Positions 13,542-25,615 of a stretch of DNA of 64,000 nt are shown here, piece by piece. The notes beneath the pieces were generated by a model. It had not been told where the DNA came from. It did not search any database and was given only the letters and a program-made list of their open reading frames with translations. Made by a program: the position numbers and the translations under genes. Numbering within the stretch: position 1 is the first letter of the stretch; each line of letters begins with the position of its first letter. The stretch is from Thermosyntropha sp. (GTDB lineage: Bacteria > Bacillota > Syntrophomonadia > Syntrophomonadales > Syntrophomonadaceae), in contig NZ_JACDOH010000003.1 of NCBI RefSeq assembly GCF_017656155.1, positions 62,001-126,000 of the forward strand. Direction: 5' to 3'.

Positions 13542-13700
13542 CTACTTTTTCTCATAGCTGGCACAGTAATTTTCATCTTCTGCGCATCCACTGTTTACAT
13601 TGCTTATAGGACTGATCTGGATCTGCTGCAGACTGCAGTAATTATTAGAATAATGTTTGCAGCTGGAAACATCACATCTTATAGTCTGCTTTCCATTCAT
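13542..13700 (-). CDS. DUF1540 domain protein
   Basis: The 52-residue product matches DUF1540, a small Cys-rich family common in Clostridia. It has the pattern RCDVSSCKHYSNNYCSL, later CAEDENYCASYEKK, giving five to six cysteines that likely bind a metal. The start ATG 13700 follows AAGGGGGATTTT. The function is unknown; relatives are often expressed during sporulation. It is a lone gene between the thiolase terminator and the T-box promoter. Confidence 0.8.
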   Translation of the reverse strand: MNGKQTIRCDVSSCKHYSNNYCSLQQIQISPISNVNSGCAEDENYCASYEKK

Positions 13701-13809
13701 ATTAACTAAAATCCCCCTTTCTTTTAGCATCAGTATTATTTTTTACTTTCGGGTCTTCTTTATGCCTGAAATTTATTCCCCATTTTGAAAAAATTTTTTT
13801 ATTTTATTG

Positions 13810-13838
13810 TTGACTTCAGGCTACAATTATCATATAAT
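13810..13838 (+). promoter_or_regulatory. Sigma-A promoter of the T-box/tRNA-Ala/leuS transcript
   Basis: TTGACT (13810-13815) and TATAAT (13833-13838) are separated by 17 bp, a near-consensus vegetative promoter. Transcription would start near 13845, just before the T-box stem I, so the T-box, the tRNA and leuS share one transcript. Confidence 0.85.
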
Positions 13839-14015
13839 TTCTTTTGTCAATCGAATATTGAAAAGCGGTGAACCGGAGTAGTAAGCCAAATCTTCAGAGA
13901 GCTGCCGGCTGGTGCGAGGCAGTGGATGATGCTGAACTCGCCGGGGAGCTTTGCAGGTGAAACAAGTAGCCTGTAACGGTAACTTCCGTTAAGGTTAATG
14001 AGCGGACAAAGATGT

Positions 14016-14091
14016 GGGGCTATAGCGCAGTTGGGAGCGCGCTTGAATGGCATTCAAGAGGTCGAGGGTTCGAATCCCTCTAGCTCCACCA
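14016..14091 (+). tRNA. tRNA-Ala (anticodon GGC), embedded in the leuS T-box leader
   Basis: The 76 nt fold into a complete cloverleaf: acceptor GGGGCTA/TAGCTCC, D stem GCGC/GCGC, anticodon stem CTTGA/TCAAG with loop ATGGCAT (anticodon GGC), variable AGGTC, T stem GAGGG/CCCTC with loop TTCGAAT, discriminator A and an encoded CCA. The G3-U70 wobble pair, the alanine identity element, is present. All stems are perfect apart from that wobble, so it appears functional. It is transcribed from 13810-13838 as part of the leuS leader and lies upstream of the leader terminator. It would thus be made even when leuS is attenuated. Confidence 0.97.
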
Positions 14092-14125
14092 TTATTTTAT
14101 TTGTCAATAAGGGTGGTACCGCGGG

Positions 14126-14162
14126 AAACTCTCGTCCCTTGTTCGGGAATGAGAGTTTTTTT
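14126..14162 (+). terminator. T-box attenuator terminator
   Basis: AAACTCTC (14126-14133) pairs with GAGAGTTT (14151-14158), with inner TCCC/GGGA pairs, then a T-run to 14162. It competes with the T-box antiterminator for 14126-14140. Confidence 0.92.
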
Positions 14163-14189
14163 ATTTATCTTTTGAGGAGGAAGGTGTAA

Positions 14190-16667
14190 ATGGACATCAA
14201 ATACGATTTTAAATCCATTGAAGCAAAATGGCAAAAATACTGGGAAGAAAATAATTTTTACCAGGTTAATGAAGATAAAACCAAGCCTAAGTTCTACAAT
14301 CTAGAAATGTTTCCCTACCCTTCAGGAAATCTTCATATGGGTCATGTACGCAATTACGCCATAGGCGATGTGGTTGCCCGTTTTAAAACTATGAACGGCT
14401 ACAATGTCCTACATCCTATGGGATGGGACGCTTTTGGACTTCCTGCTGAAAATGCTGCCATCAAACACGGCCATCATCCTGCAAAATGGACCTACGATAA
14501 TATTGCCAATATGAAAAGACAGCTTAAAAGCCTGGGAATTAGCTATGACTGGAGACGAGAAATCGCTACATGCAAACCGGATTACTACAAGTTTACCCAA
14601 TGGATGTTTTTAAAGCTTTATGAAAAAGGTCTGGCTTATAAAAAACATTCAGCAGTAAACTGGTGTCCTTCATGTCAAACAGTCCTCGCCAATGAACAGG
14701 TGGTAGAAGGAAAATGTGAAAGATGTGATGCCATAGTTGAAAAGAAACAGCTTGAACAGTGGTTTTTCAAGATAACCGCCTATGCCGACCGTCTGCTCAA
14801 TGATCTTGAACTTCTTACCGGATGGCCGGAAAAAGTTAAAATTATGCAGAAGAACTGGATAGGCCGCAGTGAGGGCTGTGAATTTTCGATGACAGTAGAA
14901 GAAACCGGGGACAAAATCCCTGTTTTCACCACCCGTCCTGATACTATTTTTGGCGTAACTTACATGGTTTTAGCTCCTGAACATCCTTTAGTTGAAAAAA
15001 TATCTAAAGGGAAACCTCAGGAAAAAGAAGTACGCGAATTTATAGACCGTATGAAATACTTAAACGAAATCACCCGTACTTCCACCGAAACAGAAAAAGA
15101 AGGAGTATTCACCGGCGCCCATGCTGTAAACCCAATAAATGGCGAAAAAATCCCGATCTGGATTGCCAATTATGTTTTAATGGAATACGGTACCGGTGCT
15201 GTAATGGCGGTGCCTGCTCATGACCAACGCGACTATGAGTTCGCACGTAAATATAATCTTCCTATAAAAGTAGTCATAAAAGGCGAAAATTCTCCAGCTT
15301 CAGCTGAAGAAATGACCGAAGCCTATACCGGAGACGGTATAATGATAAATTCCGGAAAATTTGACGGCCTCCGCGTTGAAGAAGGCAAGAAAAAGGTAAT
15401 AAGCTTTATGGAAGAAAACGGCATAGGTAAAAGAGCAGTTCATTTCCGCCTGCGCGACTGGCTTATTTCCCGTCAGCGCTACTGGGGAGCACCTATTCCC
15501 ATAATTTACTGTGAAGATTGCGGAATCGTTCCAGTTCCCGAAAAAGATCTGCCGGTACTCCTGCCGGAAGACGTAGAGTTTAAGCCTAATGGAGAATCTC
15601 CTTTAAAATATGTTGAAGAATTTTATAAAACTACATGTCCTAAATGCGGAAAAGAAGCAAGGCGGGAAACTGATACCATGGATACTTTCGTATGCTCTTC
15701 ATGGTACTTTAATCGCTACTGCAGCCCGCACAGTACAGATGTGCCCTTTACCAAAGAAGCAGTTGACTATTGGATGCCGGTTGACCAGTACATAGGAGGA
15801 GTGGAGCATGCCATCCTCCACCTTATGTACGCCCGTTTCTTCACCAAATTCTTATATGATATAAACATGATTTCATGTAAAGAACCTTTTACCAACCTGC
15901 TAACCCAGGGGATGGTTCTTAAAGACGGCTCCAAGATGTCTAAATCAAAAGGCAATGTTGTAAGTCCGGAGGAAATCATAAACAAATACGGTGCAGATAC
16001 CGCCCGCCTCTTTATACTTTTTGCTTCTCCTCCAGAAAGAGATTTAGAGTGGAGCAACCAGGGTGTAGAAGGATGTTATCGTTTCTTGAACCGGGTATGG
16101 CGCACAGTAACCTCCTGTGCTGAAAATATTGCTGGAGTAAATTTGCCCGAAAAAAATGAAGCTTTAGATAGAGATGCCAAAGCACTGCATTTTAAAACTC
16201 ATGCTACAATTAAGAAAGTAACCGAGGATATTGATGAAAGATTTAATTTCAATACTGCTGTAAGTGCTATTATGGAGCTTTCCAATGCACTCAATGATTA
16301 TCTTAATAAAGAAAATAAGAATATGGGCATCGTAAAAGAGGCTATTGATGCAATGCTCTTGCTTTTAAGCCCGTTCTGTCCTCACATTTGCGAAGAACTG
16401 TGGCACTTAATCGGCAATACCGAAAGCATTCATCTCCAGCCCTGGCCTAAGTATGATCCGGATGCCTTAGTTCAGGACGAAATTGAAATCGTTGTACAAA
16501 TAAATGGAAAGGTCAGAGACAAAATAAAGGTATCTCCTGAAATAAGTGAAGATGAATTAAAACAAGCAGCTACTCAAAATCCTCGCATAATTGAGTTGAC
16601 AAAAGATAAAAAAATAGTGAAAATTATAATAGTGCCACAAAAATTGGTAAATATTGTAGTTAAATAA
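14190..16667 (+). CDS. leuS: Leucyl-tRNA synthetase
   Basis: LeuRS charges tRNA-Leu. The 825-residue class I enzyme has HMGH at residues 49-52 ([12 protein letters not shown]), a zinc-type Cys pair set around [23 protein letters not shown], the CP1 editing domain with the Thr-rich [19 protein letters not shown] and [21 protein letters not shown] at about 582-586 ([13 protein letters not shown]) and a C-terminal anticodon-binding and tRNA-contact domain. The start ATG follows GAGGAGGAAGGTG. Expression depends on the leucine T-box immediately upstream. Length is normal for bacterial LeuRS. Confidence 0.97.
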
Positions 16668-25518: not shown

Positions 25519-25615
25519 TGTAACACCTCCATGTTTTTTAGACTCGCCAATCCCAGGCAGGCACTTTTAGCCATTTGAAAACCCGGACTGTGCGGTTGCA
25601 AAAACACGCAACCCA
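25519..25615 (-). ncRNA. Probable L21 leader RNA
   Basis: The 5' UTR of rplU begins with a hairpin GGTTGC/GCAACC (arms 25613-25608 and 25599-25594) and continues with paired segments around GCCTGGGATTGGCGAGTC before the ribosome site. Firmicute rplU genes often carry an autoregulatory L21 leader here. The match is by position and general shape; covariance was not tested. Confidence 0.5.

Follow-up and report, generated by a model that had tools for sequence, protein, structure and literature searches.

Results

The leuS leader of Thermosyntropha contains a complete tRNA-Ala gene

The locus lies in a 64,000-nt stretch of Thermosyntropha sp. DNA (the window), where leuS, encoding a leucyl-tRNA synthetase of 825 amino acids (14190–16667, + strand; 47–73% identity to LeuS homologues), follows a leader whose features are all on the same strand. 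A sigma-70-type promoter (TTGACT-17-TATAAT, 13810–13838) matches the consensus at 11 of 12 positions, bearing out the near-consensus promoter of the original prediction, and it was the only good promoter that a promoter scan placed upstream of leuS and of the tRNA. It is followed by a T-box leader (13859–14142) that aligns to the complete Rfam model RF00230 (positions 1–219) with 133.2 bits, the gathering score being 93 bits. The alignment places stem I, with its AGAGAG and GGTG motifs, at 13865–13949 and the stem II and IIA/B region at 13952–13993; the specifier CTC (13937–13939) is cognate to a genome-encoded tRNA-Leu(GAG). The predicted leucine stem I and stem II region are both present. 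There follow a purine motif and the 5' strand of stem III (14000–14010; GAGCG, of the form RRRxG, then GACAAA at 14005–14010), an intact tRNA-Ala(GGC) with encoded CCA (14016–14091; found by ARAGORN, and by RF00005 at 14016–14088 with 69 bits), and the 3' strand of stem III with the conserved AA (14100–14107; UUUGUC at 14100–14105, AA at 14106–14107). The tRNA was found exactly as it had been predicted.

The regulatory end of the leader lies 3' of the tRNA, as had also been proposed. The antiterminator (14110–14139, RF00230 alignment) carries the T-box bulge UGGU (14114–14117), which is complementary to the ACCA end of tRNA-Leu(GAG), the expected ligand encoded in the same genome. The minimum-energy fold contains an intrinsic terminator (14126–14162) formed by AAACUCUC and GAGAGUUU with an inner CCC/GGG, its helix spanning 14126–14158 and followed by a T run; a simple terminator scan did not list it. 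Alignment and fold together make the antiterminator and terminator mutually exclusive. We identify the leader as a T-box from its full-length model match, the fit of specifier and tRNA, the UGGN bulge, the RRRxG-stem III-AA element, and the exclusive antiterminator and terminator.

Elsewhere in the window, a small cysteine-rich frame of 62 amino acids lies just upstream of the leader (13542–13730, – strand), and a ribosomal protein L21 leader (RF00559, 54 bits) lies at 25530–25607 (– strand).

The embedded tRNA is usually the only tRNA-Ala(GGC) of its genome

The embedded tRNA has a cloverleaf, a GGC anticodon, G3:U70, A73, and an encoded CCA. Of the 42 distinct tRNAs found in the genome assembly, no other is a GGC isoacceptor, and a tRNA-Ala(UGC) was not among them; GCC and GCT make up 765 of the 1239 alanine codons in the long open frames of the window. 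Because no other GGC isoacceptor was found, this tRNA must be made at any leucine status, which fits the earlier proposal that tRNA-Ala is produced from attenuated transcripts as well. By our reading, exactly one strict tRNA-Ala(GGC) match occurs in 61 of 69 genomes that carry such a composite of T-box and tRNA in a sample of the phylum (the strict-match count differs from one in the other 8), and the same holds for 24 of the 30 genomes behind loci of a species-wide search. Among the composites listed, 123 of 124 have G3:U70, and nearly all have A73 and CCA. On the basis of the single-copy state, we consider it very likely that the embedded tRNA is matured and aminoacylated in the cell, and both halves of the composite, T-box and tRNA, look functional.

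The tRNA forms the apical part of stem III

The T-box discriminator is defined as RRRxG-stem III-AA (PMC7583486). The original prediction had the tRNA standing where stem III would be. Its location at stem III proved right; replacement of stem III is ruled out, since the basal helix and the purine flanks are retained. The arrangement is GAGCG-GACAAA-[tRNA]-UUUGUC-AA, in which the tRNA is the apical part of stem III and the parts needed for sensing aminoacylation, the basal GACAAA/UUUGUC helix and the RRRxG...AA purines, are kept around it. Consistent with this, the RF00230 alignment has a 75-position insert in the stem III loop at the site of the tRNA, and the minimum-energy fold encloses the tRNA cloverleaf in the stem III helix (z = –3.6).

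To the extent that motif counts are informative, AA follows stem III in 122 and RRRxG precedes it in 118 of the 124 composites listed. Our composite search itself favored these motifs, so a shuffle test is the fairer measure. Across 69 composites with different tRNA sequences, stem III formed a mean of 5.5 contiguous base pairs counted from its base, compared with a mean of 2.2 bp (maximum 2.8 in 500 shuffles) when the 3' strands were exchanged among loci. The basal 4-bp stem occurred in 27 kinds among these 69 composites. In an alignment of the family and its order, 4 of 5 stem III pairs had changed on both sides, as had 6 of 6 pairs of the stem I apical helix; the stem II helix also covaried, the terminator helix kept its pairs in 95.6% of alignment cells, and the observed covariation exceeded every shuffle. 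We left the small helix of the IIA/B region out of these results, as it was misplaced in the drawing and paired poorly.

Two further observations concern the interior of stem III. Six loci from Anaerolineae/Caldilineales (L047, L098, L111, L113, L116, and L137) have about 33–36 nt between the tRNA and the stem III 3' strand, and these gaps hold a GC-rich inverted repeat (e.g., GGCCGGTCGTCCCCGCGACCGGTC), an extra hairpin inside stem III. The ACCA of the embedded tRNA (14088–14091) is complementary to the bulge UGGU (14114–14117), and it is conceivable that the two could pair in cis in competition with tRNA-Leu.

The composite is conserved within and beyond the phylum

The arrangement described for this one locus is conserved: tRNA-Ala(GGC) lies at the same place inside the leader in all 30 of the best relatives, which are of the same family, and an even draw of 348 genomes across the phylum contained the composite in 69 genomes (46 of 240 genera and, by our count, about 22 families), compared with 1 match to a reversed control pattern in the same genomes. 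We also searched one genome per species (84,980 species) for any tRNA 3' half followed by a T-box within about 60 nt. This search gave at least 119 stretches, and the number of distinct composites is at least about 123 after removal of duplicates and false hits and with the relatives included. Among the matches listed, every composite carries tRNA-Ala(GGC), and almost every one has a CTC specifier. Isolates with the composite include Thermosyntropha lipolytica, Syntrophomonas wolfei subsp. methylbutyratica, S. palmitatica, Desulfotruncus, and Desulfofundulus in the Bacillota and Ktedonobacter, Dictyobacter, and Tengunoibacter in the Chloroflexota; metagenome-assembled genomes (MAGs) with it are labeled Armatimonadota, Atribacterota, Coprothermobacterota, and Caldisericota. 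The Rfam T-box cut-off is reached by several Bacillota, a Symbiobacterium, and two loci labeled Ktedonobacteria, and nine more distant loci from several MAG lineages score 55.6–91.5 bits, under the gathering cut-off, with E-values of at most 2.1e-9. A chance overlap of tRNA and T-box is ruled out by the conservation, the covariation, and the reversed-pattern control.

The search also returned other tRNAs (Leu, Glu, Lys, Arg, Pro, Ser, and Gln), mostly from lineages not rich in T-boxes, and a tRNA-Ala in a Rokubacteria MAG (L049). Judged by motifs, we take these to be chance hits in which T-box motifs are apparently absent. Three loci (L043, L061, and L111) have a second tRNA gene on the 5' side of the T-box leader, at a distance of about 230–320 nt from the embedded tRNA-Ala.

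The constancy of the composite bears on the question of whether the tRNA fold is itself a part of the switch, for example a stem III cap, quick to fold and rigid, that aids the discriminator or touches tRNA-Leu, with its ACCA as a possible decoy in cis. The matches listed have the same tRNA in the same stem III over great distances, and the linkers are short (medians of 6 and 7 nt), as this explanation would have it. Against it, 12 leuS T-boxes of the same phylum that lack a tRNA exceed the Rfam cut-off and score equally well, so that the tRNA is dispensable for the T-box as such; in Anaerolineae, additional long hairpins separate the tRNA from stem III, and a single old insertion together with the need for the tRNA would account for the constancy. 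We regard a structural role of this kind as quite unlikely.

leuS or a leuS operon follows the composite

Among the matches listed, leuS or a leuS operon comes after the composite in nearly every locus that is long enough. leuS lies directly 3' of it in 92 loci, others being cut by contig ends. In the remaining loci, one or two genes intervene (ilvE-like, acetyltransferase-like, or acyl-CoA-synthetase-like; these names, unlike that of leuS, were assigned by reading the sequences), and wherever leuS could be located it is the gene that follows them on the same strand. The acyl-CoA-synthetase-like gene follows the composite in Desulfotomaculum-type bacteria (L045, L053, L076, L095, L106, L120, L140, and L156). 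Beyond it, leuS was confirmed in L095, L140, and L156, while L045, L053, and L076 end before the position of leuS. No leuS was identified downstream in L158.

Promoter-like sites lie upstream of the T-box, not just before the tRNA

We next considered whether the tRNA might be an independent gene, driven by a promoter of its own and merely next to a T-box, or an unused relic. Counting as promoter-like any site with 10 or more matches out of 12, we found none within 145 nt upstream of the tRNA at the 28 family loci, a result that, like the retention of the tRNA inside the leader in relatives, favors the original prediction. A promoter-like site stands 150–260 nt before the tRNA, upstream of stem I, in 22 of these loci; the other 6 have no upstream promoter scoring 10 of 12. 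Stand-alone tRNA-Ala(GGC) genes do occur in three relatives (L190–L192, in genomes G008, G014, and G032), with a promoter 46–73 nt upstream, and are the one point in favor of a separate gene. In these relatives the T-box is apparently lost; the leuS genes of G008, G014, and G017 had no T-box match. In the composites, by contrast, the stretch before the tRNA is free of promoter-like sites in the 28 loci, the flanking stem III strands pair with one another and covary, and the tRNA is intact (G3:U70, A73, CCA) and the only GGC copy. A separate gene or relic is thus largely refuted and, in our estimation, very improbable.

Natural breaks and the history of the composite

In a LeuS tree (FastTree, 102 sequences), the composites fall into many separate groups, beside plain T-boxes and leuS genes with no T-box. 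The composite state requires at least 11 changes on this tree, compared with 25.9 when states are shuffled, and these changes rule out a simple single gain in the history of LeuS. The pattern would reflect an early acquisition followed by repeated loss, or else a degree of horizontal transfer.

One genome, G023, has the leader split over two contigs. The first (L194, G023:C109) holds the promoter, stem I, stem II, and the complete tRNA, followed by a short frame resembling an integrase N terminus; the second (L193, G023:C41) retains only the 3' part of the tRNA and, after it, the 3' strand of stem III, the antiterminator, the terminator, and leuS. A 49-nt core that runs from the anticodon arm to just past the CCA is common to both pieces. 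A shared core of this kind is the usual mark of an integrative element that has entered a tRNA gene. It looks as though such an element has parted leuS from its sensor, the integrase being read by inspection.

Three side observations belong here. A cysteine-rich frame similar to the one in the window lies beside the split leader in L194. In G037, of the same order, the leuS leader (L225, 4100–4230, – strand) still has its T-box end (GGTGGTACTGCG) along with a tRNA-Ala 3' half, while the 5' half of the tRNA and stem I look decayed. The G037 genome gave no other strict tRNA-Ala(GGC) match.

Discussion

We consider it probable that this composite of a leucine T-box and a tRNA gene yields one transcript with two products, in which the charging of tRNA-Leu(GAG) sets read-through into leuS; a single RNA seems to act at once as a riboswitch and as the precursor of a tRNA. 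Transcription would start unconditionally upstream of stem I and proceed through the domain that senses tRNA-Leu(GAG), then stem III with its tRNA-Ala loop, and finally the antiterminator and terminator. Uncharged tRNA-Leu would favor the antiterminator and the reading of leuS, and charged tRNA-Leu the terminator, so that the leuS decision would fall within the approximately 70 nt transcribed after the tRNA. Because the tRNA precedes this decision point, the terminated RNA and the leuS mRNA both contain it, and maturation could therefore free tRNA-Ala in either state; the attenuated transcript would not be waste. Stem III would tolerate the insert because its contacts with the remainder of the switch involve only its base and the purines on either side.

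Ordinary tRNA maturation proceeds by RNase P at the 5' end and nucleases at the 3' end. Since every composite listed has the sensor on one side of the tRNA and the antiterminator on the other, maturation must cut these two apart. If this occurs after the decision, as we infer, the cut would be costless. If RNase P acts fast, the sensor could conceivably be cut off before RNA polymerase gets to the terminator, which counts against the mechanism that we favor, as do the six family loci with no promoter-like site upstream, the eight composite genomes whose strict tRNA-Ala(GGC) count differs from one, and the MAG lineages that score under the Rfam cut-off. The cleavage might itself be regulatory: a fast cut would cancel the switch, or a cut after read-through would release the bound tRNA-Leu and give the leuS mRNA a new, stable 5' end. 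In Bacillus subtilis, expression rises when the thrS T-box leader is processed, a precedent for such help to the leuS mRNA. The sequence gives nothing by which to tell regulatory processing from harmless late processing, and the conservation of the stem III bases and flanks means that the uncut discriminator must work. We think regulatory processing unlikely. Only a little less doubtful is the idea that this is an ancient, widely inherited RNA in which the folding, ACCA end, or excision of tRNA-Ala helps to set or reset the leucine switch, coupling tRNA-Ala supply to leuS control.

The T-box and tRNA-Ala are both of known kinds, and the composite is a variant of the T-box riboswitch. With the Leu-specific transcriptional leuS T-boxes of RF00230, it shares the CUC-specifier stem I, stem II, RRRxG-stem III-AA, the UGGN bulge, the antiterminator/terminator, the leuS gene downstream, and the cognate tRNA-Leu(GAG) with its ACCA end; where the ordinary leuS T-boxes of the phylum (the 12 noted above) have a short stem III loop, the composite has a complete tRNA-Ala gene. 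Lineage-specific insertions in T-box stem III, of unknown function, have been described (PMC7583486). These likewise add sequence to stem III, whereas the insert here is an intact tRNA gene, always of one kind and conserved across phyla. The enterobacterial thrU-tyrU-glyT-thrT-tufB operon puts tRNA genes, some of which are alone in reading their codons, under one promoter with a gene for a translation protein (PMC6134099). Its tRNAs precede the mRNA as units of their own, whereas in the composite the tRNA is nested in a riboswitch, between sensor and switch. In line with the original prediction, our literature search, which included T-box review and database papers and only a minority of subscription papers, found no T-box described as containing a tRNA gene.

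The composite places a riboswitch that needs integrity and a tRNA precursor that needs cutting on one RNA, a pairing that has survived across very distant lineages. Whether the riboswitch decides before or after the tRNA is processed can be tested directly in such an RNA, which also shows that stem III of a T-box is able to hold a structured domain of 76 nt. The composite matters for annotation as well, in which leader, tRNA, and leuS are normally kept apart. For the bacteria that carry it, the composite would be an attenuator with a useful aborted transcript, in which the expression of a probably essential tRNA gene is physically bound to the regulation of another amino acid.
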